A stretch of DNA of 64,000 bases from assembly GCF_032884065.1 (NCBI RefSeq), contig NW_027062649.1, positions 2,153,355 through 2,217,354 on the forward strand. Direction: 5' to 3'. Every line of letters begins with the position of its first letter. The first letter of the stretch is position 1. The notes under the pieces were generated by a model, which worked only from the letters and a program-made list of their open reading frames with translations, was not told where the DNA came from and did no database searches. Both the position numbers and the translations under genes were made by a program. Shown here piece after piece: positions 1-48,274 of the stretch. The DNA is from Artemia franciscana (taxonomy: Eukaryota; Arthropoda; Branchiopoda; Anostraca; Artemiidae).

Positions 1-1273
1 GCTATTAATTCCAGCTGCACCGATAACTCAGAGATCGTCAAGAAACGATGCTAGTCCTGCAAAAGATCCATTTGGTGTAGACCCATTCTTAATATTGATA
101 TTAAAATGGTTTTTTTGCTTGTCAAATAGCTATTAATTCCAGCTGCACCGATAACTCAGAGATCTTCAAGAAATGATGCTAGTCCTGCAAAAGATCCATT
201 TGGTGTAGACCCATTCTTAATATTGATATTAAAATGGTTTTTTGCTTGTCAAATAGCTATTAATTCCAGCTGCACCGATAACTCAGAGATCGTCAAGAAA
301 CGATGCTAGTCCTGCAAAAGATCCATTTGGTGTAGACCCATTCTTAATATTGATATTAAAATGGTTTTTTGCTTGTCAAATAGCTATTAATTCCAGCTGC
401 ACCGATAACTCAGAGATCGTCAAGAAACGATGCTAGTCCTGCAAAAGATCCATTTGGTGTAGACCCATTCTTAATATTGATATTAAAATGGTTTTTTGCT
501 TGTCAAATAGCTATTAATTCCAGCTGCACCGATAACTCAGAGATCGTCAAGAAACGATGCTAGTCCTGCAAAAGACCCATTTGGTGTAGACCCATTCTTA
601 ATATTGATATTAAAATGGTTTTTTGCTTGTCAAATAGCTATTAATTCCAGCTGCACCGATAACTCAGAGATCTTCAAGAAATGATGCTAGTCCTGCAAAA
701 GATCCATTTGGTGTAGACCCATTCTTAATATTGATATTAAAATGGTTTTTTGCTTGTCAAATAGCTATTAATTCCAGCTGCACCGATAACTCAGAGATCG
801 TCAAGAAACGATGCTAGTCCTGCAAAAGATCCATTTGGTGTAGACCCATTCTTAATATTGATATTAAAATGGCTTTTTACTTGTCAAATATCTATTAATT
901 CCAGCTGCACCGATAACTCAGAGATCTTCAAGAAATGATGCTAGTCCTGGAAAAGACCCTGTTTGATACAAACCCATTCTTAATATTAAAATAGTATTTT
1001 CTTGTTAAATAAGTATTAATTCCAGTTGCATCGATAACTCAAAGATCCTCATAAAATAGTGCTAGTCCTGCAAAAGACCGTTTGGTGAAAACCCATTCTT
1101 AATATCAATATAGTATTTTTCTTGATAAATAAGTATTAATTCCAGCCGCACCGATAACTCAGAGATCCTCCAGAAATGGTACCAGTCCTGCAAAAGGGAC
1201 ATTTGGCGCAGACCCATTCTTAATATTGAAATTAAAATATTATTTTTTCTTGATTAATAAGTATTAATTCCAG
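1..1273 (+). repeat. Tandem array of ~127-bp units, each holding an intron 3' end plus half an exon
   Basis: About ten units start near 1, 129, 256, 383, 510, 637, 764, 891, 1012 and 1133, each beginning (G/A)(C/G)TATTAATTCCAG. The period is 127 bp in the left, near-identical units and drops to about 122-126 in the right, diverged ones. Each unit contains an acceptor-like TTAATTCCAG, then about 75 bp homologous to the first half of the exon at 1274-1434, then about 50 bp homologous to the T-rich intron end before that exon. The array runs off the left edge, so total copy number is unknown. Homogeneous units on the left and degenerate ones next to the exon suggest recent expansion away from the exon. 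Confidence 0.95.
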
Positions 1274-1434
1274 CCGCACCGATAACTCAAAGATCCTCAA
1301 GAAACGGTGATAGTCCTGCAAAAGACCCATTTGGTGCAGAACCGTTCTTTGCTGGTAGTTTTGAAAAACAGGTTGATATATTTGGTATGAACAATTTCGG
1401 CTCTGAAGCAAAGCTGACAAAACAAGATGTGCCG
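1274..1434 (+). CDS. Internal coding exon of an unidentified protein with DPF motifs
   Basis: An open stretch of 161 nt (2 nt of a split codon plus 53 codons) lies between acceptor TTAATTCCAG, with T-rich sequence upstream, and donor GTAAGA. It encodes a Ser/Gly/Asp/Phe-rich peptide containing KDPFGAEPFF, then FGMNNFGSE, ending KQDVP. DPF is the motif that binds the AP-2 appendage domain in many endocytic adaptors, so such an adaptor is possible, but I cannot name the protein. The reading frame closes at a stop just inside the intron, as expected for an exon. No partner exon was recognised downstream, and upstream exons lie outside the window. Coding status is inferred from the splice sites and peptide composition only. 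Confidence 0.5.
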
Positions 1435-3180
1435 GTAAGATAATGCTTCTATTTGTTCTGAAAAAAAACAATTAATTTTCCACGAACTTGTTCTTTATAC
1501 ATTTGCAGAGCATAATTTGCACTTAGTGTTTCTATTTTGATAATGTTTCTATTTTTTCAAAAAAAAAAAAAAATCAAAGATCCTGATTTATTTACATTTT
1601 CAGAGCATAATTTGCTCTTTAATGAAAACAAAATACATTTTAGATGTTTTCTATTTTTACTTAAATAAATAAAAAATTATCAAAACTATACGAAACAAAT
1701 ATCAGTATATGTATGTTAAACTGACGGTCCATGTTTTTTAATTATATGCTGTTTTTTTTTTTTCATTTTTTCAGTTAAGTGCAAATTATGTTCTGTTCTT
1801 GAGAAGGTATGTGGGTTGTTAGCCCTACTACTGTTAATTTTCACTCGTTTTGAGCTTTAATCAGTTATTTTTTTTTCTGTTCGTTTTGGGTTTCATTTAT
1901 TTATTGATGATGATTAATGGTAGTTTTACGGTTGTAGGATTATTTTATTTATTGTTGTAGGATTTATTTATTGTTGTATTTATTGTTGTAGGTTGTATTT
2001 ATGTAGTATGTAGGTAGGTTGTATGTAGGTTGTAGGTGTATTTATTGTTTTTATGTTGTATTTATTGTTGTAGGTTGTAGGATTATTTTAATTTATTTTT
2101 GCTCATTTTCAGCTTAATGGTGATCTTTACTTTTCTTTGAAAAACTTGTTTTTTGGATTTTTTTTTTTTTAATTAATCTAGGGAAAAACCATAGATTTAT
2201 TATCTGAACTGGTATCAGATAATACAGCAACGGTATTGCAATACGTGAGTTGATAAACAGCCACCACGCATTTAACTCAGTTGATGTTAATATGTTAAAT
2301 GAAAGCTGGTAACTCATGATAACTGGTAATTCAGATGTAAATGGTACCTCTTATGATGGCAATCAATAATGGTAATAGAAATTTAGACCTTGGAAACCGG
2401 TTTTGCCCAGTTGAAATGCCTCAAGAACCCTTTGTTGCGGGCATGAAAGAAAAGCGATTGGCTATGACAGAAAAGCGGGAGAAGGAGTAGTCAGTGGATC
2501 TTCTTAATGGGGGGGGTATCCAAAAAGGTTTCGTTTGTAGTGTCATAGTGCCTTTCATTTTCATGAAAGAAAAGTGCCAAAAAGTTGCAAAAAGTGCAGA
2601 CAAGTTGTGTTGGTGAATGCTCGGGAAAGTGTCTTCTAAGCTGTCTTTGAGCTTTCTTGATGTTATGCTACTTCTAGCATCTTTCGCCCTCTCCTTTTTT
2701 TCATTTGCTCTAAAATTTGTAAAGATTTAAATATTGAAAAGAAACCACGTAAGTATTAGGACAATAGTCGAAAAAGTCTTCTTCCTCTCGATTTACCTCT
2801 GACCGCAACTAGTAAATTTCGTATTAGCTTTTCTTGTCGGGTGGTATATTTGGTGTCTGAGAATTTTGTTGAATTTTGTTTTAATCTTGTGTCCGCTTGG
2901 ACATCCAACTGCCTTCTTTGAGAGATAAAACGAGAGGTCTTAAAATTTACTTGAAAGCATCCGCATAATTTTATTTAAGATTTGTTTTATAAGTGACTTA
3001 CTTATAAATGACGTACTTATAAGTGACTAAAAAAAAGTCGTTTTTTTCGGTTTAGTATATTTTTGTTCTTCCCGGATCGTATTTAAAATTACAAGGTAAA
3101 TACCTCAGACTAAAGAGAGAAGAGAATGAGAATTTGTAGAATTCAAGTCGACGGGAGTCAAGAGTTAGACTTTTCATGGA
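1435..3180. other. AT-rich non-coding stretch with simple repeats
   Basis: No convincing gene. About 1925-2095 is a degenerate TTTATTGTTGTAGG repeat. Sequence near 1505-1530 reappears inverted near 1783-1800. A 44-codon open frame runs from ATG 2356 to TAG 2490 and is rich in Glu and Lys near its end (EKRLAMTEKREKE). It has no recognisable homology or clear splice site and could be chance or a terminal exon of the gene at 1274. Poly-T tracts are frequent. Confidence 0.5.
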
Positions 3181-3182
3181 CT

Positions 3183-3960
3183 ACAAGCGCAGTGGTTAAC
3201 TAGACCTACGTTGCCCGGGCAACTTGAAGTGTTGCGGCAGCCTTTGTCCGGCTTCGCCGGCTAAAGTGTTGCAAGAGCAACACTTTGGTTTTGTTTCTTC
3301 GCTATCGATCAGTAATCACATGATCAAAGGCTATTCCTCAGCGTTGAAAAAACAACAACAAGATAGTATCAAAAGAAGGGACTAAATTGACTTTGCAGTT
3401 AGTTGAACTTTATCCTTTTCAATCTTAGACATTGTGACGAATGAAAACTCGGAACAATATCTTATATAATCTAGTTGGTATTATAAAGCTATCCCTAACT
3501 TTTCAGGATCAAAATACCATAGATGACATTATATTAATTATTACGGAACTATCTCATTGTTTTACATTCTCGTTTGTGCTTGTTTCTTCACTATCGGTTA
3601 AATGATGAAGTTGTCAGCCTATCGAAGTTTTTAAAACGGTATGTTTTAACAAGAACGCAATCAGTTATCGCATGACCAAAGGCTATTCCTCAGCGTTGAA
3701 AAAACAACAACTACAAAATAATATCGAAAGAAGGGACTAAATTGACTTTGCAGCCAGTTGAACTTTATCCTTCTCAACCGTAGACATCGTGACGGATGAA
3801 AACTTGGAGCAATATCTTATATAATCTAGTTGGTATTATAAAGCTATCCGTAACTTTTCAGGAATAAAATACCATAGGTCACACTAATTATTACGAAACT
3901 ACCCCATTGTTTTACGTTATCGTTTGTACCCGTTGCGTTAACACTTAATTCTGTCATATT
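3183..3960 (+). repeat. Interspersed repeat family A (two tandem units) with clustered hairpins
   Basis: The segment contains two partial units about 350-380 bp apart (compare CTCAGCGTTGAAAAAACAAC near 3338 and 3693). The same sequence, including TAGACCTACGTTGCC and TTTGGTTTTGTTTCTTCGC, recurs at 63683-64000. The left end (3208-3290) holds three successive GC-rich stem-loops: GTTGCCCGGGCAAC, CCGGCTTCGCCGG and AGTGTTGCAAGAGCAACACT. The left unit lacks about 65 bp present in the 63.7 kb copy. No open reading frame is conserved between copies. The class is unknown; a non-autonomous DNA element is likely. Confidence 0.8.
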
Positions 3961-4004
3961 TAAAGAGATCGAATACAATTTGCACCAATTTGCACAAATT
4001 TCTA

Positions 4005-4610
4005 GCCCAATGTGAACAGATTCTTACTTACAAGTCCCTCTCCCGTGATAGACATCAAGTTCACCCGAAAGAAACAAATGGGTACACCAACTAGCAAAAG
4101 TTGCAAACCCATCATCGCTGAAGATGATTGTAGCCCAATAGCCGATTATTCCTTACAAGTCCTCTACATGTCTTACCACTGGAACCAAAATGGCTTAACC
4201 ATCAAATACACCGGAAACAAATAATAGGTAGACCAACTAGCAAAAATGGCAAACCCCTCATTGCCGAAGATTATTATGAGCTAACAGTCGTTTCTCGCCC
4301 AAAGTGATCCGATTCTTACTTATAAGTACCTCTCCCGTGATAGGCATCAAGTTAACCGGAAACAAATAAATGGGTACACCAACTAGCATAGTTGCAAACC
4401 CCTCATCGCTGAAGTTGACTGTAGCCTAACAGCAGATTATGACTTACAAGTCCCCTACATGTCTTACCACTGGAACCAAATTGGTTTTACCATTAAATAC
4501 ACTGGAAACAAATAATAGATACACCAACTAGCAAAAGTTACTAACCCCTCATTGCCTATGGTGATTATTACCTAACAGCCAACTGTTGCTTACAAGTCCT
4601 CTACATGTCT
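4005..4610 (+). repeat. Degenerate tandem repeat, ~292-bp period made of two ~145-bp halves
   Basis: GATTCTTACTTACAAGTCCC at 4019 returns with few changes at 4311. TACATGTCTTACCACTGGAA recurs in alternate halves near 4166 and 4458, and ACACCAACTAGCAAAAGTTG-like sequence appears four times. One half keeps a 70-codon open frame (4012-4224), but the frame is closed in the neighbouring units, so it is read as repeat rather than gene. It lies between the two inverted pieces of repeat A and may be its internal part. Confidence 0.8.
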
Positions 4611-5475
4611 CACAATTTGTATCGGCCTAGATTTTGTTTCAGTGTGTACCTTACTACTGAAGGTGTCAACCCCTCGGAATTTTCAAACTGGTATACCTCA
4701 TGAAGGATTTTTGTACCAAAAAATGGATGTCATACACTTTGATCAGCTCATCAAGAGCTATCGATTGCCGTCGAAAAAAAAATTCTATCTTTCTTAGTTC
4801 AAAAGTTAATTTTTTTTGCCGTAGGCCAACTTTCTAACGTCACCACTTAGAAAGGAGCAAAGGATAAGCTCCAATTTCTTTAACAATGAGAGAACTTTTA
4901 AATGTTATTAGGCACATCTGATACCATTTTTCTACCCAATCCCAAGGCCGAAAAACCGAATGATAAACTCAGCTGAAATCATGAACAGAAATAGATAGAA
5001 ACAATAGATGGCAGCACCTTCGGACCCGTGGGAAAATGCCACATTTCTGTAATTTTGTTCTGTAAATTTTTCTATTTATCACTCAAAGAAGATGTATTGG
5101 CTGTGGGGCCGGGTAACTACCGCATATATTTAACACTTATAGATTTTAGTCCATCTTCAATTTGAAAATGGTGCCTGCCTGCTTGCCTGCTAGAACGGAG
5201 CTTTCCACTCGAAAGCAGAAACATGCTTTGAGGAAACGAAAGCTTGGCTGCACAACTTCAGATACTCCTCTCTGACATAGGTTGTAAAAATCCAGTTCAC
5301 TTCGCACACCATAGGCTCTGGCTCGTGGACAAGTAAAAACCATCCTTTTTGGCCCCAGGCAAGAGTTCTGCGGAGGTTTCCAAAATGTAACGTCATATTC
5401 ATCGATCCGGCCTGAGATACACACTTTCCGTGAAAACCGCAAAGGTTAGACCCTTACCAGTTTCCAGGAATAAAC
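4611..5475. other. No recognisable gene
   Basis: Mixed-composition sequence. A 98-codon open frame on the minus strand (5146-5442) shows no motif I recognise and has no splice or promoter context. It is bounded on the right by the inverted fragment of repeat A. Confidence 0.4.
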
Positions 5476-5600
5476 TGGGACAAAACCAAAGTGTTGCTCT
5501 CGCAACACAATGACACAACACTGAAGTTCATGATTACTGTCTTAAGTAATTAAAAGGAGCAATAGACAGTGTTGATGATTTCTTAGGATTTGTAGATGTG
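5476..5600 (-). repeat. Inverted fragment and end of repeat family A
   Basis: AACCAAAGTGTTGCTCTCGC is the reverse complement of the hairpin region at 3265-3292 and 63750-63780. The adjoining AACACTGAAGTTCATGATTA...AAGGAGCAAT...GACAGTGTT recurs at 14845-14925. Together with 3183-3960 this could bound one roughly 2.4-kb element, with the 4.0-4.6 kb tandem units inside it; that linkage is inference. Confidence 0.65.
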
Positions 5601-5647
5601 TTGCTCCTTTTCCTATCCTTGCATGGACGTTTCCTCATCTACTTAAA

Positions 5648-6450
5648 AGCATTGGGGAAATAAGCTAAGAGCAAGGAGGCAGAAGATGTAGATAAACATT
5701 GGGGAAATAAGCTAAGGGCAAGGAGGCAGAAGATGTAAAAGATGTAGAAAAAACATTAGGGAAATAAGCTAAAAACAAGGAGGCAGAAGATGTAGATGTA
5801 GATGAAGATGTAGAAAACCTACTGGGGAAATAAGCCAAGAGCAATGAGGCAGAAGAGGTAGAAGATGTAGATGAAAATGTAGAAAAAAATTGGGAAAATA
5901 AGCCAAGAGCAAGGAGGCAGAAGATGTAGAAGTAGATGAAGATGTAGAAAAAATATTGGGGAAATAAGCTAAGAGCAAGGAGGCAGAAGATGCAGAAGAT
6001 GTAGATGTAGAAAAACATTGAGAAAATAAGCTAAGAGCAAGGATGCAGAAGATGTAAAAGATGTAGATGAAGATATAGAAAAAACATTAGGGAAATAAGC
6101 TAAAAGCAAGGAGGCAGAAGATGTAGATGTAGATGAAGATGTAGAAAAAAAACTGGGGAAATAAGCTAAGAGCAATGAGGCAGAAGATGTAGATGAAGAT
6201 GTAGAAAAACCATTGGGGAAATAAGCTAAGAGCAAGGAGGCAGAAGAGGTAGATGAAGATGTAGAAAAAACATTGAGAAAATAAGCTAAGAGCAAGGAGG
6301 CAGAAGATGTAAAAGATGTAGATGAAGATGTAGAAAAAACATTAGGGGAATAAGCTAAAAGCAAGGAGGCAGAAGATGTAGATGTAGCTGAAGATGTAGA
6401 AAAAAAATCATTGGGGAAATAAGCTAAGAGCAAGGAGGCAGAAGATGTAG
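5648..6450 (+). repeat. Minisatellite, ~55-65-bp unit, about 13 copies
   Basis: Units read roughly GGGGAAATAAGCTAAGAGCA, then AGGAGGCAGAAGATGTAGAT, then a variable GATGAAGATGTAGAAAAAAC. AAATAAGC occurs about thirteen times. Length differences come from gain or loss of GATGTA blocks. Open frames of up to 154 codons on the minus strand, rich in Ser, Thr and Leu, are products of the repeat and are not called as genes. Confidence 0.95.
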
Positions 6451-6918
6451 ATTTTTATAGGAATACGCAAATACTGGGCCTCGTGTTCATTCCACATGAC
6501 ATTACCCGCATCAGGTTAGTGTTTGATGGGCATATAGGAACATTCAAGCAGACTTTTCGAAAGACCTCTTGAGACCGCTGCTTTTATTTGCTCAGGGAGC
6601 TATCCTATTCAAAGTTTTCAAAGTTGGCAATTCCTCGAACTGTGCAAATTTCACCTTTGCTAGTGCTTTAAGTGTAAGGTCCAGTGGTCTAATATTTCTT
6701 TTCGAAAGTCTCTTAGGGTGTAGGTACCTTTCCACTGTATCTGAAGCTTTCGCCCACTACATTATACTCTACCTGGCTATTGGCTTGGAAGCTTTAATGC
6801 CTCACACCTCGGTAGCTTCATTGTCTGAGGGTTTATAGTGCCTAGCCTCCAAACCCTACTCCCTCTCGACATCAACGACACTGCACCAAATAATATTATT
6901 AATATACTTTAAGGATTG
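6451..6918. other. No gene recognised
   Basis: Roughly balanced base composition. An 89-codon frame on the plus strand (6569-6838) lacks an ATG start and known motifs, so it is not called. Confidence 0.4.
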
Positions 6919-7232
6919 TATGGCCGTCCCGGCTAAGTGGTTAGCGCGCTGGTGTGAGAATTATTTGTCCAAGGGACACGAGTTCAATCCCAGTTGTGAC
7001 CAATGGTTTAGGACGGGGGTTAGTGGTGTGACTCTGTAAGCTCAGTAGGAGTCGACCCATCTCTAAATGGGTATTTGGAGAAATCTGGGGAAGGTAAGCA
7101 GGAAGAGTGTGTGAAAGCACAGGAGGGTTGGCCCCCAGCCCCCCATTGCTCTTCCTAGCTGAAGGGCCATGAAACGGATATCAGCACCGCCAGTTAGGAA
7201 CTTAAGGGTCTAGTGCTGTCATACTTATTTAC
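6919..7232 (+). mobile_element. Full-length tRNA-derived SINE
   Basis: The head resembles a tRNA with internal RNA polymerase III promoter boxes: A box GGCTAAGTGGTTAGCGCG near 6931-6948 and B box GAGTTCAATCC near 6980-6990. The body has AAATGGGTATTTGGAGAAAT, GGGGAAGGTAAGCAGGAAG, GAAGGGCCATGAAACGGA and TCAGCACCGCC, and the end is TAAGGGTCTAGTGCTGTC followed by CTTATTTACT. Partial or diverged copies lie at 8954-9109, 42908-43228 and 59512-59785, which fixes the boundaries. It is non-coding and would depend on a LINE for mobility. Confidence 0.9.
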
Positions 7233-8343
7233 TACCTAAAGACTGTATTTAAAGAAAGAATCCTAAAAAACCTAAATAATTTCGTAAAACTGTACAAACT
7301 TTGATCATTTCTGTCCGTTTTGAGTCCTAATGTTGATCTATACTTTCAGGTTATGATATTTGTTATTTCGTTTAATCAAAAAGCAAGGAATGGCATTAAG
7401 ATCAATCAAACTGAATATAGAATTTACATTGAATGAATTAGTGAAACAGAAAAAATCGAAAATGAATTGAAGAATTAGTTCAAATTCAAACAAGCGTGAA
7501 TTCGAATAAATGTGCCGTGTTTAGTGACAATTTAAAAACATCAACTAATAATTAAAATAATGGTCAGAATGTTTAAATCTTTCATTATTTAAAGGAAATA
7601 TGTTCAGTTGTTGAAAAATTCGGTTGTGTCTTTGGCACTCTTACAGTGAAGTAGCTAAGGAAAGGGTTAAGAGGATTTAGTAATCCCTGCTCTCCTCCTG
7701 AGGAGGATCTGGAATCCCCCTCTGCCCCCTAACTCAAATGGATGAGGCACATGCTAGAGTAGAGCCTCGAATTTTTTACCTACTATTTTTGCCCCAGGGT
7801 AGACTTTTGATCACAATTGAGTAAAAAAAATGTTTTGAAAATGCTGAACAAGCAGTGATATTGCATAAAAGAAACTTAGTTCATAGTACAGTCCCTCCTC
7901 CAAATCCCAGTCGAAGAATTTAGATGTTAAGTAGTACGCAGGAATATAACAATATTCACTACAAAAACTTCACAGCGTACTTTCAATTTCGTGGTTCTAT
8001 TAATCAACTAAAATTTTGCTTTCAAATAAAATGATTTTTTTCCTTTTTTAGAAACCTTCAGTGAAGGACTTTTCACTAGACTCGTTGGATCCACTGAAGG
8101 CGTGAAAATGGACACTATTTTATTTTTATTCGCAGAATTTAAATCGGAGTTGCATCGATGTGTGCGTTTTTTTGTGTGTTTTTGTTGTAGCAACTCTACC
8201 ATCAAGAGACGTAATTTTTGGAAGTATCGAAGAGGTTGATTATGTTTATTCTATTAGTTTTATTTAAATACCTTCTAAAAAAGCTGAAAAATGTTATAGA
8301 CTCTTACTTATCTTGACTTTTCCAACTTTGTCAAACGATCTAA
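7233..8343. other. AT-rich sequence without recognisable features
   Basis: No coding exon, RNA gene or repeat boundary could be supported. Short open frames are not conserved in any copy elsewhere in the window. Confidence 0.4.
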
Positions 8344-8350
8344 GGCTGAA

Positions 8351-9482
8351 CTGGCCAGCCATGACAAAAACAAAGAGAGAAAAATATCCCAAGATGAAGG
8401 AAAGAGACGGGAATATGGCCAGTAGAATAAAACGACGCGGATACGATGGATTAAACGACGCGCCGATATAACGATATAACACGCGGATTAAACAACGTGC
8501 CTTTATAAACAAGGCGTCTTCAACGCTAAGAACAAAGATACAATCCAAAATAATCTAAAACGTAAAATTAAAGAAAATCTAAAAGCAAAAAATAAAAAAA
8601 AAGTATACCATTGATGTTATTGTGACTGAGCACCACAGAAGCTAAACAGAATTACCTTAGGGAGAACATTGAAGCGACCCTACTTGCCAGCCATGACAAA
8701 TACAAAGAGAGAAAAATATCCAAAGATGAAGGAAGCAGACGGGACTACGGTTAGTAGAATAAAGTGACGAGAGAAAACGATGCGGACACGACGGATTAAA
8801 CAGGACGAATTAAACGACGCGCCTGTGTAAAACAAGGCGTCTTCAACGCTAAGAACAAAGATAAAATCTAAAATAATCTAAAACCCCAAATTGAATAAAA
8901 TCTAAAACCAAAAAATAAAAAAAACAATATACCATTGATGCTACTGGGACTGAATGGGTACCTGAAGAAATCTGGGGAAGATAAGCAGGAATGGAGTGCG
9001 AAAGCCAACCCCTCATTGCACTTCCTAGCTGAAGGGCCATGAAACGGAGATCAGCACCGCCGGTTTGGACCTTAAGGGTCTAGTGCCGTCTTACTTACTT
9101 ACTTACTTTACTGTGACTGAGCACCTCAGAAGCTAAACTGAGTTACTTCAGGGAGAACAATGAAGTGACCCTACTGGCCAGCCATGACAAAAAAGAAAGA
9201 GAGAAAAATATCCCAAGATGAAGAAAACAGACGGGACTACGGCCAGTAGAATAAAAACGACGCGGATACGACGGATTAAACGACGTGCCTGTATAACAAT
9301 ATTACAACGACATTACACGCAGGTTAAACGATGCACTTGTATAAAACAAGGCGTCTTTAACGCCAAGAACAAAGATAAAATCTAAAATAATCTAAAACAT
9401 AAAACTAAGAAAAGCTAAAACCAAAAAAAAAAAAAACAATATACCACTGATGCCACTGTAACTGAGCACCACAGAAGCTAAA
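8351..9482 (+). repeat. Three tandem copies of a ~330-bp unit
   Basis: Units begin CTGGCCAGCCATGACAAA (8351), CTTGCCAGCCATGACAAA (8682) and CTGGCCAGCCATGACAAA (9175). Shared blocks include GAGAAAAATATCCCAAGATG, ACAAGGCGTCTTCAACGC and ACTGAGCACCACAGAAGCTA. Spacing is 331 bp between units 1 and 2. Between units 2 and 3 it is 493 bp, which becomes 326 bp once the inserted SINE and one target copy (167 bp) are removed. No conserved open frame. Confidence 0.9.
8954..9109 (+). mobile_element. 5'-truncated SINE inserted into the tandem repeat, with target-site duplication
   Basis: The insert starts at ATGGGTACCTGAAGAAATC and ends in a CTTACTTACTTACTT tail, matching the 3' half of the SINE at 6919. 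It is flanked by ACTGGGACTGA (8943-8953) and ACTGTGACTGA (9110-9120), an 11-bp target-site duplication with one mismatch. The uninterrupted target is visible in the neighbouring units near 8622 and 9455. The truncation and direct repeats fit target-primed reverse transcription. Confidence 0.92.
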
Positions 9483-10135
9483 CATTCCTTCATCTTCAGA
9501 TTTTTTTTTTCTCTCTTGGTTTTTGCAAATGTTTTGTGTAAAAAAATTTATTTAAGGGAAGTTTTAAGAGAAATTTTTATCTAAATAATCTAAATCAAAA
9601 GCTAAAAGGGTTATCTTTTTTTTTATCTTGAAGTGTATATTTAAAATAGTCTCATTTCTAATGTACGTTATCGGGGAGGTTTTAAGGAAAATCTGAAACA
9701 TCCTTTTTAAATTAAGTTTCTGATTGCAGTTTTATCTTTCAGGAGAGGGGTAGGGGTTTATAAGTACCGAGAAACTTCAAATTTTATGGATTAGGTCGCA
9801 TTTTTGGGGTTTAATCTTTCTTGGCTTTTACAAGATCCTATTTTCACACTGCGTTTGTTTTAACTTTGTAAATCCCATGATTTCGGCGATACTGATGTTT
9901 GTGGAATTAAATGACTGAGATGGATTTATGGTATGTTGTAATGCATTTTAACAATAAATATAATTTTTTTATTTATTAAGACTCAGTCTTCGTTTTTATT
10001 AAGGGCAAGATGTTTTTTTTTATTTGAAAACAGCAGAAACTTGTCATTTAGCAAAATGAAATGTGCATCCTGATGGTAACACACCTAATGTGATGTCCAA
10101 ATTCATATTTACACCCCATCTATGACTTGATGGGA
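9483..10135. other. AT-rich sequence, nothing recognised
   Basis: Long A and T runs and no supported gene, RNA or element boundary. Confidence 0.4.
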
Positions 10136-25146: not shown

Positions 25147-26956
25147 TTACTGGTGGAAACAAGAAAAGCTGTTTTTGTCACCATCAAGACATAGAAACAC
25201 TTTACATTCAATACACCACCACATCGTCTTCATTGAGCAGCCAGGAAGGCGTCACCTCTTTGCGTTCTTTAGGTTGCATTATTCGGGTAAGTGAATGGCT
25301 TCTCTAATTCTCTCAGGCGGTAATGGTTGGCGCTTAATGAAATTACCAGCCGAAAGTACTTCACAATCGTCGTCTTCTTTGATATGCTGCTCCGGTTTTG
25401 GTCGACAGAGAAGGTGCTCTGTAACGTGAAGACGATTTGATATGAGTTCCTCGAAGCTTGGCCTGCTATTTTCTTCATGAGCCTGCATCTCGATAAAAGC
25501 ATTTGAGCATGCAGTATCAATAAAATGATGAAGGAATCTTATGTTCCATTTTCTAGTTCTGAAAGCGAATCAATAATAACTGATCATACGGTCAGCCGTG
25601 TCCGCTCCGCCCGTGCACTTGTTGCAGTCAGCTACAGACCTTGGGCAAGTGATTGTGATCTGCTTCCCCTGCTTTTGTCCCATCTTTTCACTGTTCCCTT
25701 CTTCTACTGCCTTCCAATTTGAGCCTAGTGTCATAATTCTTGGATCAAACCATTCCGTGGTGGCTAGCTTCTTATCTTATCGCACAAATGCAACGTTCGA
25801 CCCTCTTCGTTTCTTCTTCATTTCTTTGTCTGGCTTCAGAGGTATGGTCTCTTCCAAATCTATTTTGTATGATTGTGCCAGTTGCATTTATCTGCATTTC
25901 GCATAGATGGTCGAGTAATTTTGTTGAGTTGAAAAATAGATCAAAACAGAGCTGGATCCAGTTGGGAGAGTTTGAGATAGCCTGAGTACGATTCCAATTG
26001 CAAGGCCATGGGATCGCATACTTTCAGGAAGTGTAGTGGCAACCTGAAAAATCTCGAAGTGAAGTATTAGACCCATTGGATTAGCCAAATCAAAGTTTTT
26101 GAGGCCGGCGGGTTTTGACTTATTGGGTGCATACTGCCTGAACGACGTTTTTCTGTAAAGTGGGATCATCTGCTCATCAATTGAATAATTTTTGTCCCTC
26201 GGGAAAGAAAGGCAAACGGTACGGAAACGGTACGGAAACGGTTGATAATTGACTGAACTCTTCACAATCGATTGTTCTCCTTAATTGTGTCAGAAATTTC
26301 CTCATCTACAACAAATTTTAGATTGCTTCTTAGAATGAAGAAGTGTTTTTTTCCAATATTTTCTAACATCTGGTTTACACGGTACTGTGCCTTCCAGTAC
26401 ATGTCAATTTGAAGATATTTGAGATTATCCATCAATATTACAACTCCAAAAAAATGTCTTAAATTCGTCACTAGACGAACTTATCACTAGACGACCATTC
26501 AGACTCTTGTGGAATTTTTGCTTCATAGGTGTAGTTTGTGGCACATGCCGCCTCATTGAAAAAAGACTGGGAGAAGTACTGTGTGAAAAAATCTTCTGGT
26601 TTCCAATCAGAACGGTCAGTAAAGATAACTTCATCTCTTACTAAACCCAAGTGAATCTCAAACCTCGTGCTTTCCCTGCATTTCGTCAATTTTGGTTGTT
26701 TCATAGGTCGCTGCAATATTCGAGCCTGCTCGGCTAGAGGTATATCATCTCCAAAATTATACTCAAGCTCAGATACTTCCTCGTCGATGATACCTTCATC
26801 ACCTGGAAGGAATGCGCTGTTTGGATCTTCATCTTCACACTTGTATCTTGAAGTTCTATAAGAGAAAACATGGTTCTCAACTTTTGAGGATGACCATAAG
26901 CGAAAGTAAAGAAAACACAAAAAAGTAAAAAAAAATGGTTTTAAAACGTTTTTCAT
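25147..26956 (-). pseudogene. piggyBac-type transposase, frameshifted and stop-ridden
   Basis: Read leftwards, the frames give in order: an acidic N-terminal part (GDEGIIDEEVSELEYNF), a block with YTYEAKIPQ, then FFGVVILMDNLKYLQIDMYW, then LSFPRDKNYSIDEQMIP (the conserved piggyBac segment around a catalytic Asp), RQYAPNKSKPAGLKNF, a TGT-type segment near 25870, and a C-terminal Cys-rich zinc finger (RLPGCSMKT, WWCIECKVFLC, FSCFHQ) ending at 25147. At least three frameshifts and several stops split it, so it encodes no active DDE enzyme. It lies antisense in Hs6st intron 1. The terminal inverted repeats and TTAA target sites expected for intact elements were not identified. Confidence 0.9.
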
Positions 26957-28380
26957 TCATAATGTAGTTTCAAGTTCATTCATTAATAATTTTTCATTAA
27001 GCTTTAGAACCTCTAATCTGGAGTTAGATTAATTTTATGATATCTATGATGTTGGTAAGATAAGATTAGACATTTATTTTTAAAAATCACTACCACATGA
27101 CCACAAAAGGCCGAATTCGGACTTTGGAGCCAAATATCATATGAAAACGCGAAAACCGGCAAAAATGCAAAAACAACAACGAAAAAGTAAAATCAGAATG
27201 AACAATTATTTGTGAAATAATAACTTTACTGCAAAAAGTCAATTAAAAAGCTGAAAGCACAAAAACTGGCCAAGTTAAACTTAAAAAAACGATAAACACA
27301 AGTTAAAAAAACGAATTAAAAGGGACATTAAAAAGGAGGGGGGGGGTAAATAAGTGAATAAGGGATACTAAAAAAGTCTCAATAATTGAACTATATAAAG
27401 TCATTTAAAAAGATAAGTGCTTATGACCTAATATTAAAAACCAAAGAAAGAGAGGTGGCAAATTGCCAGGATAAAAAAATATTTTTTTTTGGTTTGAGTG
27501 CGCCCATTTTTCCCAGCTGCTGCTTTCCATTTTCCAAGTAATTATACCTTATCTGATTTTGGAATGGTTTTCTAATTCGATGAGGTGGCTAGACCTTATT
27601 AGATTAAATGGACATTTCGGAAAACAGTTTCTTTCTCTGCCAAAAATAAACAGTTTCTACTGTTTTGGAACCATTCCTCTTCACAATATACTATTTTGAC
27701 TATTATTTTGGACGTTGAATAGTTGCTCCGAATTTCATCTACGGTAAAGAAAACACAATTAAAATAGGAAGTTCTTCTATTGTGTCAGCTCTTAACTTCA
27801 AAATACTTGATTGAGAACCGATGTACATGTGGGTGGACATTGAACTTTAGTCACTCACCAGTAGATGGCGTAATGGGTATAGGTGGCAAAGTCACTCCCA
27901 AAATGAAGTTGTAATCCTTCCAAGTAAGCTTATTCTTTTCCAGGCTCCACCTTTCATTCAAAGAAAATAGAAATTTTCTTACCTCTTACCCTCCTGCTCT
28001 TTTTCGATCTCGAACTTTCTTCAATTTCTTTAATGCATAAACAACTCTTTCAATACCAATAACAGGCTGAAAAAATCAGAGATGGCAATTCAGATATGCT
28101 GATTCCAACCGTGGTACGTAGATGGCGTTTGGACTAATAGCTATCGTGTTAAAAAATATTAACTGTCAACATTATGTTAGCAAATTTAATGTTGACTTTT
28201 CGGGTAGATTACTAAAACCTTTATTAGCTATTATTGTCCAAAGGTAATTCTTCACTGATTTGAGTATTGAGACATACTATTCATTACTGACAATTGAAAG
28301 AGTCATACCAATCTCTAGATTTTTTATTGCAAGCATTCCCAAGCATGCACAGGGGAAATAAATGGGAAACTCGCAGAAAC
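26957..28380. other. Hs6st intron 1, middle part: nothing recognised
   Basis: AT-rich with A-rich stretches and a G run near 27340. No supported exon or element. It may include the 5' flank of the piggyBac copy. Confidence 0.4.
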
Positions 28381-28384
28381 GAGT

Positions 28385-28945
28385 GTCTTACCTGTCTTGA
28401 CGCACCTCATCAACCTTTCTCTGGATCATAGAGTCTTCCCGCAAGCACTAAAAATTGCAAGAGTGGTTCCTCTTCATAAAGGAGGGAAAAAAGATGACCC
28501 ATCAAATCGAAGACCTATATCTATTCTCTCATTTTTCTCTAAGTTATATGAGAAAGCTGTACATACCCAGTTAAGTTATTGTATTGAAAAGAATAAAATT
28601 CTAATAGAAAACCAATTTGTGTTCAGAAAAAGGCTATCTACATATATGGCAGTTCTGAAATTGGTTGATTGGATTAATGATTCATTTGAAGCTGGTCTTA
28701 TACCTGCAGGTGTGTTTTTGGATATGAGAAAAGCGTTCGATACGGTGGACCACCCAGGGCTTATTCAAGTTCTTGCCTCGATTGGGGTGAGGGGTTCAAG
28801 ACTTGAGTGGTTTTCATCATATCTAAACGACCGGTGTCAGACAGTACAGAATGGATCATTTTTATCTTCAAAAAAGAAAATAGAGTGCGGGGTCCCACAA
28901 GGGTCAATCCTGGGACCCCTCCTTTTCATATCTTTTCATACCCTA
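28385..28945 (+). pseudogene. Jockey/LINE-type reverse transcriptase fragment, truncated
   Basis: A long uninterrupted frame encodes the N-terminal half of an RVT_1 domain: LINLSLDHRVFPQALKIARV and PLHKGGKKDDPSNRRPISIL (fingers), KLYEKAVHTQL, motif A VFLDMRKAFDTVDH with its catalytic Asp, and motif B CGVPQGSILGPLLF. Translation stays open to 29098, but similarity ends at about 28945, before the Y-x-D-D motif, so the enzyme is dead. There is no in-frame ATG at the left end and no endonuclease domain. The open tail runs into the foldback element at 29019. It was probably inserted relatively recently, since the frame is intact. Confidence 0.9.
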
Positions 28946-29018
28946 ATATCATTATATATCAAATTTAATTTAATTTTAGTAGTTCTTTCCAAGACTGTTG
29001 AAAACAAATATGGTTTCA

Positions 29019-29348
29019 CTACAAACAAGAGTTTGGATACTGCCCCACTCCCTAACTATAAAAGTATAAAGCCTACTACGTCATTGGTACTTCACTGAAA
29101 ACGAATTGTATTAAAAATATTTTCTTTTTCAGTTATTGGAGCATTGAAAATGAAAATAAAATTACAGTGAAATAAAATCTTGAATTGATGATCTTTCAAC
29201 AATTAATAACATCATATATCAAACAATTATTTTGATTTTATTTGTATTTTTCAAGACACATATAGTTTTCAGTAAAGCGTCAATGACGCAGTAGGTTTTA
29301 GACTTTTACAGTGAGAGAAGGCAAAATCCAAACTCTTGTTTGTAGTTA
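29019..29348. mobile_element. Foldback MITE with ~110-bp inverted arms
   Basis: The left end CTACAAACAAGAGTTTGGAT is the inverse of the right end ATCCAAACTCTTGTTTGTAG. Further in, CCTACTACGTCATTGGTACT pairs with the region around GCGTCAATGACGCAGTAGG, and TCACTGAAAACG pairs with AGTTTTCAGTAAAG. The spacer is about 110 bp and holds no gene. It follows directly on the truncated reverse transcriptase. Confidence 0.85.
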
Positions 29349-40529: not shown

Positions 40530-42105
40530 AGATCAGCCATGTGTTGCTCTGAATTTGAATATTTGAGATTGGACTTCTTGGTATTTTTATTGAATAAGAA
40601 ATAATTTTTGAATGCAAGTTACTTAAAGTCAATCGTAATTTGGTTAAACTCCCGGGTAATGTGGAAAAGTTCTCGCATATAGGGAAATCTAGACCCGTCA
40701 TACAATTATATCCAATTTCTAATGTAAATTCAAGATGATAATTAACAACTGAATTCGGACATTTTTATATTTCTATCGAATAAGAAATAATTATCAAAAA
40801 AATAAATTACTTATTGGTTTATCCTCATAAGGTTAGACTTCCAGGTGGTATGAAAAAGACCCAACATATCCAGATAGATACCCGGCACATCAGGATACCG
40901 CTTTTCTAATCTATTTCTTATATTACTCTGTATTTGAATATCTGAAATTGGACTTTTTTGTATTTTTATTGACTAAGAAACACTGCATGTTCCTTCTCCT
41001 TTATCCAAGCCTGGGACTGGCTACTGACGAGTTAATCCGACAATAGGCGGAGTTAAGTCCTCGCATCCTCGCATATAATGAAATCTAGACCCGTCATATC
41101 ACGATACCCAATTTCTAATATAAATTAAAGCTGAAAATGAGCAACTGAATTTGAACCTTTTCATTTTTTCTATGGTCTAAGAAGTAATTTAAAAAAATAT
41201 ATATTACCTATTGCTTGATTCTCATAAGGCTAGACTCCTGGGTATTGTGAAAAAGACCCAAATATCCAGATAGATACCTGGCACACCATGATACCCCTTT
41301 TCTAATCTATTTCTAATATTTCTCTGTATATGAGTATTTGAAATTGGACTTCTTTGCATTTTTATGGAATTTGAAATAATCGTTGAAAATAAATCACTTG
41401 TTATTAATCGTCGTTAGGTTAAACTACCAGATAGTGTGGGGAAGACCTCACAGATATTGAAATATAGAACCGTCATACCATGATACCCAATTTCTAATAT
41501 AAATTAAAGATGATAGAGAATATGGCATTCGCATCTTTCTATATTTTCTGCGTACTAAGAAATAATTATTGAAAAATAAATTACTTATTGGCCGTTGATC
41601 GTCATAAGGTTAAACTCCTGGATGGTATGAAAAAGACTTGCAATATCAAGATAGTGTAATGTAGCGCCCTGACATACCATGATACCCCATTTCTAATATA
41701 AATTAAAGATGATAGAGAATATGGCATTCGCATCTTTCTATATTTTCTGCGTACTAAGAAATAATTATTGAAAAATAAATTACTTATTGGCCGTTGATCG
41801 TCATAAGGTTAAACTCCTGGATGGTATGAAAAAGACTTACAATATCAAGATAGTGTAATGTAGCGCCCTGACATACCATGATACCCAATTTCTAATATAA
41901 ATTAAAGATGATAGAGAATATGGCATTCGCATCTTTCTATATTTTCTGCGTACTAAGAAATAATTATTGAAAAATAAATTACTTATTGGCCGTTGATCGT
42001 CATAAGGTTAAACTCCTGGATGGTATGAAAAAGACTTACAATATCAAGATAGTGTAATGTAGCGCCCTGACATACCATGATACCCCATTTCTAATATACT
42101 GCTAA
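40530..42105 (+). repeat. Satellite array in Hs6st intron 3, degenerate left half and 199-bp homogeneous right half
   Basis: GATGATAGAGAATATGGCAT occurs at 41509, 41708 and 41907, exactly 199 bp apart. Shared blocks are AAGAAATAATTATTGAAAAA, GTCATAAGGTTAAACTCCTG, GTATGAAAAAGACTTACAAT and CATACCATGATACCC. Left of 41500 the same blocks recur with many changes and variable spacing. The array ends about 265 bp before exon 4. Confidence 0.92.
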
Positions 42106-42370
42106 TATTACCAAGAACTTAGTGAATATTCGGAATTCGGCTTTTAGGCGCTCGTTATTACTACTATTTCCTGGTTGTTATTAATAATAACCAGATCATC
42201 TTTAATTATGAAATACTAAAACTATTTAATTCCCTTTAATGTAATGACGTCAATAGCTCTTGCCCCACTCCCTTCCCCCTAAAAAAAGGCTGTGTGTGTG
42301 CTTCCACATTTGTAAGGCCGTGGTGGTACAACCATATGAAACGTAATTATGATGTATCTCTGGTTTCTAG

Positions 42371-42519
42371 GTACCTTTATGTCACGTTCCTTCGGGACCC
42401 TGTCTCTAGGTTCCTTTCAGAATTTCGACATGTTCAGAGAGGGGCAACGTGGAAGAATTCGAAGCATTCCTGTAACCATCGGCTAGCCACCAAAAATGAA
42501 CTACCACCTTGTTTTGAAG
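42371..42519 (+). CDS. Hs6st: Hs6st exon 4: 3'-PAPS-binding motif
   Basis: Acceptor ATCTCTGGTTTCTAG precedes and donor GTTAGA follows GAAG. It encodes residues 174 (last base) to 224 (first base): YLYVTFLRDPVSRFLSEFRH, VQRGATWKNS, then ELPPCFEG. The YVTFLRDPVSRFLSE stretch is the 3'-phosphate-binding region, with Arg182 and Ser186 at the expected positions, and RHVQRGATWK is diagnostic for HS6ST. The peptide joins both neighbours in frame. The exon lies between the 199-bp satellite and a SINE. Confidence 0.95.
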
Positions 42520-42907
42520 GTTAGACCCTTTTTTCCTTTTAACAAATACCTGACTGGTAGGGTATTTTCAGGATGAAAATAGCTCTTCCTCGATTCTTCA
42601 GATAGCTACTGGAAGGTCACCTTGGGGTTTCTCGCACCTCGAGTAGGAAGATGTGCAGGCAACAGTGACATCATTACGAGATTACCAGAAACTCTGTTGT
42701 GGAGGCTCTAGGTTCCTCTGGGGGCACAGCAGGATTTAAAATAATCTAAAGTAACCAAAATCTAATATTTTAATGACACACAACAGTAAGCCATAGATAT
42801 GTGACATGATATTGGTGGTTTTTTTTCTAATGTAGTTTTTAATGCTGATTACATAACTGAAAACTGTTTTACTTCATCCCTTCTTGTTTTCAATATATAT
42901 TTCATCT
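42520..42907. other. Hs6st intron 4, left part
   Basis: The segment 42785-42900 (AGCCATAGATATGTGACATG, GATTACATAACTGAAAACTG) recurs at 43475-43585 (AGCCATAGATATCTGGCATG, GGTTACAAATCTGAAAAATT), so a SINE-containing block separates two old duplicate copies. Confidence 0.6.
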
Positions 42908-47580: not shown

Positions 47581-47657
47581 TCGTAGCTTGCACAAGACTG
47601 AAAAGTAGAGAAAAAGTAATTTCGGACATTCACCAGTGAATGTTGACATTAATCAGA

Positions 47658-47714
<57 letters not shown>
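47658..47714. repeat. (TA)n microsatellite close to the Hs6st exon 5 acceptor
   Basis: About 55 bp of TA ends some 45 bp before the acceptor AG at 47758. Its length may vary between individuals and could affect recognition of the acceptor. Confidence 0.97.
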
Positions 47715-47719
<5 letters not shown>

Positions 47720-47759
47720 GTATTCAATTACGCCATAACAACAATTACTATTATTGCAG

Positions 47760-48274
47760 GTGACAGATGGACAAATATAACTCTGGATAGTTTCATGTCT
47801 TGTCAATATAATTTGGCACTGAATCGGCAAACAAGAATGTTAGCAGACCTAAAAGCAGTTGGGTGTTACAATATTTCCGCCATGAGTAAGAGCGAGAGGG
47901 GTCGATTACTCTTGTCTAGTGCCAAACTCAACTTATCAAAAATGCCCTTCGTAGGCATCACTGAACACCAGCAAATGAGTCAATATATTTTTGAACGAAC
48001 TTTTAAAACGAAGTTTCTCTTTCCATTTGAGCATTATAATAAAACGGTGAGTAGTGAAACTTTGAAAGAACTCACGGAAGAGCAGAAGCAAAAGGTGTTG
48101 GAGTTCAATAGTCTAGACGTGGAGCTGTATGACTTTGCTATGAAACTGTTTAATAACCGATTTGAGAAACTTAAGAAACTTGATGATGATTTTGAAGCTC
48201 ATTATCAAGAAGCTCATAATAGTGGACAAACGTTTGCGTGGGATTTACTTTCTGACGAAGACGTGGAGATTTGA
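47760..48274 (+). CDS. Hs6st: Hs6st exon 5: C-terminal half of the catalytic domain
   Basis: Acceptor ACTATTATTGCAG precedes GTGACAGATGG. Joined to GAAG of exon 4 it gives E-G-D-R-W. Encodes residues 225-394 and the TGA stop. Family landmarks in order are SFMSCQYNLALNRQTRMLAD, LKAVGCYNIS, LLLSSAKLNL, MPFVGITEHQQMSQYIFERT and LNDLD-like FNSLDVELYDFAM. It ends in an acidic, probably helical tail (LLSDEDVEI). Four N-glycosylation sequons are visible (NIT, NIS, NLS, NKT), fitting a Golgi-lumen domain. The open frame runs upstream through the (TA)n tract as Tyr-Ile repeats, but the homology and AG place the border here. Its last ~125 nt are duplicated downstream. Confidence 0.95.

Follow-up and report, generated by a model that had tools for sequence, protein, structure and literature searches.

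A tandem array of fifteen decoy acceptors at an intron-exon boundary of a candidate ced-6/GULP1 gene of Artemia franciscana, probably a silent minisatellite mirage

In the current work, a coding exon of Artemia franciscana was found to be preceded by a tandem array of copies of its own acceptor and 5′ half, which, judging from the sequence, is probably a "mirage", that is, a minisatellite spanning the intron-exon boundary of a candidate ced-6/GULP1 gene. The explanation considered most likely, with a probability of about 75%, is that this mirage is silent, being spliced out together with the intron. The window under study is the whole stretch of 64,000 nucleotides that was analysed (C63:2153355-2217354), while genome searches were performed on the complete 1.27-Gb assembly (6468 contigs).

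Tandem Repeats Finder detected a repeat at window positions 1-1349 (period 127, 10.7 copies, 91% matches, score 2069), which is far beyond chance. Each unit consists, in this order, of approximately 50 bp of intron end, the acceptor TTAATTCCAG, approximately 75 bp of exon sequence and a tail, the latter doubling as the intron end of the next unit. The acceptor TTAATTCCAG is present 11 times within the first 1.5 kb and is absent from the rest of the window; the copy belonging to the real exon (1264-1273, plus strand, as are all array features given here) is identical to those of the window decoys according to the motif count. The sequence shared between exon and units extends about 75 bp into the exon and stops at TTCTT near position 1348, and the full exon (1274-1434) is reached by the last copy only. 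This real exon, of 161 nt and encoding (A)APITQRSSRNGDSPAKDPFGAEPF...KLTKQDVP, was delimited by its open frame, by its 10.1-bit donor and by being the sole full-length copy in the genome. The donor, GTAAGA (1435-1440, in the context CCG/GTAAGA; 10.1 bits), is the sole strong one in or just after the array. Repeat finding, motif count and donor scores agree with the original prediction of a coding exon that follows numerous copies of its acceptor and 5′ half, all lacking a good donor.

The number of such decoys, predicted to be at least ten, amounts to 15 in the assembly from which the window is taken. Ten of these lie inside the window (array part 1-1273, defined by repeat finding, motif count, genome search and alignment), and five are located upstream of it, their first exon-like bases being found by genome search, reading and alignment at positions -616, -495, -366, -239 and -112. 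A one-unit query against the whole assembly retrieved 15 matches, all on contig C63 between 2152849 and 2154703 (1.9 kb); these represent 14 decoys plus the real exon, the fifteenth and most decayed decoy (first exon-like base -616) having been identified by reading and alignment outside the BLAST matches. A dispersed satellite, named in the original prediction as the contrary case, is ruled out, since every unit match is at this one locus. Alignment placed seven near-identical central units at 15-852 (exon-like starts 15, 143, 270, 397, 524, 651 and 778), followed by the exon-like parts of U13 (905-980, frame-shifted by a 1-base insertion), U14 (1026-1099, which has lost one base and contains an in-frame stop) and U15 (1146-1220, diverged and adjoining the real exon).

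For the analysis of divergence, the intron part (50 bp) and the exon part (75 bp) of 16 copies were compared. Differences within the central ten (U03-U12, three of which are upstream of the window) amount to at most 6%. Divergence is greatest in U01, which lies farthest from the exon and differs by 24-31% from every one of the other 15, and the remaining edge units U02, U13, U14 and U15 are diverged as well. The distances of the real exon are 11-17% to the centre, 16-19% to U13-U15, 20% to U02 and 29% to U01, and a tree separates it, together with U01, U02, U14 and U15, from the central units, at support values between 0.26 and 0.90. The idea that the units nearest the exon are the oldest is contradicted by these values, because both edges are diverged around ten near-identical central units, leaving no gradient towards the exon, and because the real exon is at least as distant from its three neighbours as from the centre; ageing of the units towards the exon is therefore ruled out. 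The pattern, in which both ends would be old or unhomogenised and the centre young or homogenised, corresponds to the usual picture of tandem-repeat turnover.

The decoys themselves appear to be unconstrained, given that their exon-like parts diverge no more slowly than the intron-like tails (0.189 versus 0.176; 15 pairs from six representative decoys) and that two of the 15 (U13 and U14, the latter with an early stop) are frame-shifted. Little support is consequently left for decoys as conserved coding exons, their exon-like parts evolving like the tails. When four in-frame decoys were compared with the real exon, the differences included fewer amino acid changes than random placement predicts (8/16, P 0.026; 4/9, P 0.047; 4/8, P 0.124; 6/12, P 0.049), a deficit which the real exon's own constraint can explain; in comparisons between decoys, only one of six pairs showed such a deficit at P <0.05. 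The one hint of constraint on the acceptors is the TTCCAG motif, all six columns of which are invariant among seven lineages (permutation P about 0.016 in a test chosen post hoc).

Three exons encoding a PTB (PID) domain are located 10-22 kb upstream of the array in plus-strand frames, and hence on the same strand, at C63 ~2132317-2132552, 2140323-2140460 and 2143740-2143961; each was recognised by a profile match, the third being below the Pfam cut-off when taken alone (E 0.055). Upon joining, their best PDB match is the GULP1 PTB domain 6itu (PTB domain-containing engulfment adapter protein 1; E 2.2e-58), the next-best being LDLRAP1 (E 1.5e-19). All three genome matches of the PTB peptide correspond to these same three exons, and all 13 matches of the array-exon peptide fall at the locus, one being full length (1274-1434) and 12 being partial and within decoys; at the sensitivity of these two peptide searches, the genome revealed no second copy of the gene. 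From its predicted protein sequence the gene looks like a ced-6/GULP1 cell-engulfment adaptor, of which exon 1274-1434 would be a probable C-terminal part.

The array exon shares its strand with the PTB exons, fits their order, has an open frame and is followed by a strong donor, while the linker exon connecting them is drawn from phase-filtered candidates. Considering that PTB exon 3 ends in phase 0 and that the array exon needs phase 1, a further exon is required between them. Among 12 candidates pre-filtered for the needed phase, we propose the exon at C63:2147770-2147953 (…LPPVPPR…LNH/A), preferred for its proline-rich sequence, which we take to be GULP1-like. It ranks tenth by score among the 12, its phase fit is by construction, and a shorter form with the same acceptor exists; the low rank of the preferred linker makes the link between the PTB exons and the array a proposal. 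An FGAEPF motif is, we assume, common to the array exon and GULP1. The probable next exon (2182-2244, plus strand, 63 nt, GKTIDLLSELVSDNTATVLQY, phase 0; acceptor 7.8 bits, donor 5.9 bits) was picked by eye, independently of homology. Pfam searches yielded no match for exon 1274-1434 and no family in the plus-strand frames of window positions 1-9900, and neither Rfam (gathering thresholds) nor a tRNA scan gave a match in the window. Later ced-6 exons and the 3′ end of the gene were not found by a motif search, which gave two chance-like matches, or by a splice scan, which gave nothing convincing.

Several other features were recorded in the window and the assembly. Two plus-strand exons at 42240-42524 and 47609-48274 encode a Sulfotransfer_2 protein, presumably a heparan-sulfate 6-O-sulfotransferase, and a 199-bp tandem repeat (3.1 copies, 99% matches) is present at 41474-42098; this repeat was considered as a second mirage and ruled out, as it ends about 140 bp short of the open frame of the sulfotransferase exon. 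A further tandem array, with a period of ~66-69 bp (11-12 copies, 83% matches), occupies 5682-6452, where the minus strand is open for 161 codons and specifies a repeated SLLLAYFPN-like peptide. The window also contains a reverse-transcriptase fragment (28319-29098, plus strand; RVT_1, E 1.7e-21) and a transposase fragment (25888-26280, minus strand; DDE_Tnp_1_7, E 1.3e-8). In the assembly as a whole, COX1 (PF00115) has 75 matches, many of them within multi-megabase contigs (e.g. L024 on C4 and L028 on C6468) and several of full length with TGA as the only "stops"; these would appear to be nuclear insertions of mitochondrial DNA in large number, some of them recent. In COX1 copies of the assembly, AGA is found at conserved serine positions and ATA at methionine positions, and the C-terminus (PPADHSYEE) looks arthropod-like; as amphioxus has the main code features in common, the tentative conclusion that the host is probably no cephalochordate leans chiefly on the C-terminus.

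Splice sites were scored with approximate matrices untrained on this species. The shared TTCCAG acceptor scores 0.63 bits at the real exon; nine of the 15 decoys have an equal score, two score above it (0.81 and 1.93) and four below it (-0.48, -1.43, -2.55 and -1.43). An extra TAG situated 13 bp upstream of the shared acceptor scores 5.2-6.5 bits in nine of the ten central units, and U01 has a TAG 34 bp upstream with 6.8 bits; in front of the real exon there is an AAG at -12 with 0.2 bits. Set against the 0.6 bits of the real acceptor, the TAG sites of these nine units imply that decoys may be stronger, so that on the predicted acceptor alone nothing favours the real exon and some decoys look stronger. 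The AAG located 12 nt upstream of the real exon (window 1262-1273) is a second possible acceptor, the use of which would lengthen the protein by four residues in frame.

What sets the real exon apart from the decoys, according to these predictions, is its donor: no donor-like site of a decoy unit scores above 3.0 bits, as compared to 10.1 bits at position 1435, and GT dinucleotides scoring at least 10 bits make up 0.4% of the 5392 present in 104 kb. From each of the 15 decoy acceptors, the frame read through to position 1435 is closed by a stop 8 to 81 residues on, and the same holds for all alternative AGs up to 45 nt upstream of the decoys. The earlier claim that each decoy ends in a stop is upheld to that extent, yet in nine of the ten central units the stop is in the following unit and not in the unit's own tail.

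These features can be accommodated in a model in which repeated tandem duplication of a boundary segment (the last ~50 bp of the intron together with ~75 bp at the 5′ end of the exon) would have made the array, and in which unequal exchange or conversion would keep its centre alike. The last acceptor would be chosen through exon definition, since no other copy has a strong donor for pairing across the exon, and the 15 decoys would leave with the intron; occasional use of a decoy would result in a premature stop and, presumably, in a degraded mRNA.

Mirages are a kind of structure already known from amphioxus, and the array described here is apparently one outside the cephalochordates. In the amphioxus report (PMC3087553), mirages are minisatellite-like tandem duplications across an intron-exon boundary, found in the globin genes BflGb6 and BflGb9 and in Adh3. 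The BflGb6 unit of 150-160 bp combines the 3′ end of an intron with the 5′ part of an exon, is present in 6 and 3 copies in two haplotypes with 81-100% identity, and undergoes concerted evolution within the cluster from which the edges are excluded; from Adh3 data and globin RT-PCR the authors conclude that regular splicing is undisturbed. The Artemia array is alike in its minisatellite-like tandem repeats (period 127, 15 decoys), in a unit that includes the intron-exon boundary of its host gene and, with respect to BflGb6, in a homogenised centre (ten units, at most 6%) with diverged edges (U01, U02 and U13-U15), whereas it differs from BflGb6 in its host (a candidate ced-6/GULP1 gene), in its 15 decoys versus 6 and 3 copies and in its unit of ~127 bp versus 150-160 bp. 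The same architecture, homogenised centre and excluded edges in amphioxus, and the undisturbed splicing reported there, are counted in favour of a silent mirage.

Related cases are known from plants and humans. In a potato RdRp gene, a single boundary-spanning tandem duplication gave rise to an intron whose GTAAG donor came from exonic sequence, as confirmed by 106 RNA-seq reads (PMC4974935); the corresponding GT in the Artemia array is weak (1.0 bit, phase-symmetric, in ten central units), and there are 15 copies as opposed to one duplication. Minisatellites at exon-intron boundaries of human duplicated genes can change splicing, though those described (PMC2812944) have ~30-bp units, number four repeats on average and lie in segmental duplications. 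The decoy exon in intron 4 of human OGT, as presented in PMC12017769, which cites Parra et al. 2018, resembles the array in having intronic decoy 3′ splice sites and a premature stop, but its 5′ splice sites are needed for its effect, whereas the array decoys have no donor above 3.0 bits.

The OGT case bears on the alternative that the repeated acceptors engage the splicing machinery and thereby cause intron detention or poison splicing, with copy number setting the level of ced-6/GULP1. Such a role is consistent with the stop met in 15/15 read-throughs, with the nine central units whose predicted acceptor is stronger than that of the real exon, with the invariance of TTCCAG across seven lineages and with the promotion of intron detention by the OGT decoy (PMC12017769). 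It is nevertheless considered unlikely, given that the OGT decoy has both 5′ and 3′ splice sites and requires the former while no unit here exceeds a 3.0-bit donor, that the exon-like parts are under no extra constraint relative to the tails, and that amphioxus mirages reportedly leave splicing undisturbed (PMC3087553). A copy number inflated by the assembly, or a wrong join of the array, would be compatible with the near-identity of the central units, the copy number being taken from the assembly, but appears very improbable in view of the scattered differences between units, the diverged edges and the location of this array of ~2 kb inside a 3.9-Mb contig.

Two further alternatives assign a product to the decoys. 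A weak TTTG/GTGTAG donor (the GT at exon base 61-62) could allow central units to be spliced as in-frame 60-nt micro-exons in part of the mRNA, each adding 20 residues (AAPITQRSSRNDASPAKDPF) with one DPF motif, which is an AP-2 binding motif. This GT is kept in all ten central units, and each 60-nt cassette is open, runs from phase 1 to phase 1 and leaves a residual intron of 67-68 nt to the next acceptor; in the potato boundary duplication, moreover, a donor within the duplicated exon sequence was taken into use for the new intron (PMC4974935). However, the GT scores 1.0 bit, a value attained by 30% of the GTs in 104 kb, as compared to 5.8-10.1 bits for six donors attributed to the gene; the same GT (1.4 bits) lies inside the coding sequence of the real exon, it is missing from U13-U15, and the scores of U01-U02 are below -2, making this alternative highly unlikely as well. 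If true, the count of endocytic-adaptor motifs in an engulfment protein would depend on an unstable minisatellite, and the array would be a mirage caught in transition to a tandem exon family. Less probable still is the use of decoys as alternative last exons, whereby a decoy would be joined and the transcript cleaved inside the array, generating a truncated protein with a hydrophobic tail. Although the array contains 15 ATTAAA hexamers, distributed over 14 of its 15 decoy units, and the reading frame of most central units continues as ...DPFLILILKWFFACQIA beyond the exon part, this hexamer is expected in AT-rich DNA, AATAAA is absent from the array, and in nine of the ten central units the stop is located beyond the unit's own hexamer.

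The silent mirage, which remains the preferred explanation, would constitute a natural competition test, in which fifteen near-copies of one acceptor, together with the same first 75 bp of exon, differ from the real site mainly in the strong donor. It bears on how far exon definition alone decides acceptor choice and on the number of decoys that a gene tolerates. The array shows how an intron may be lengthened by capturing copies of its own exon, and suggests that mirages may occur more widely than in amphioxus.
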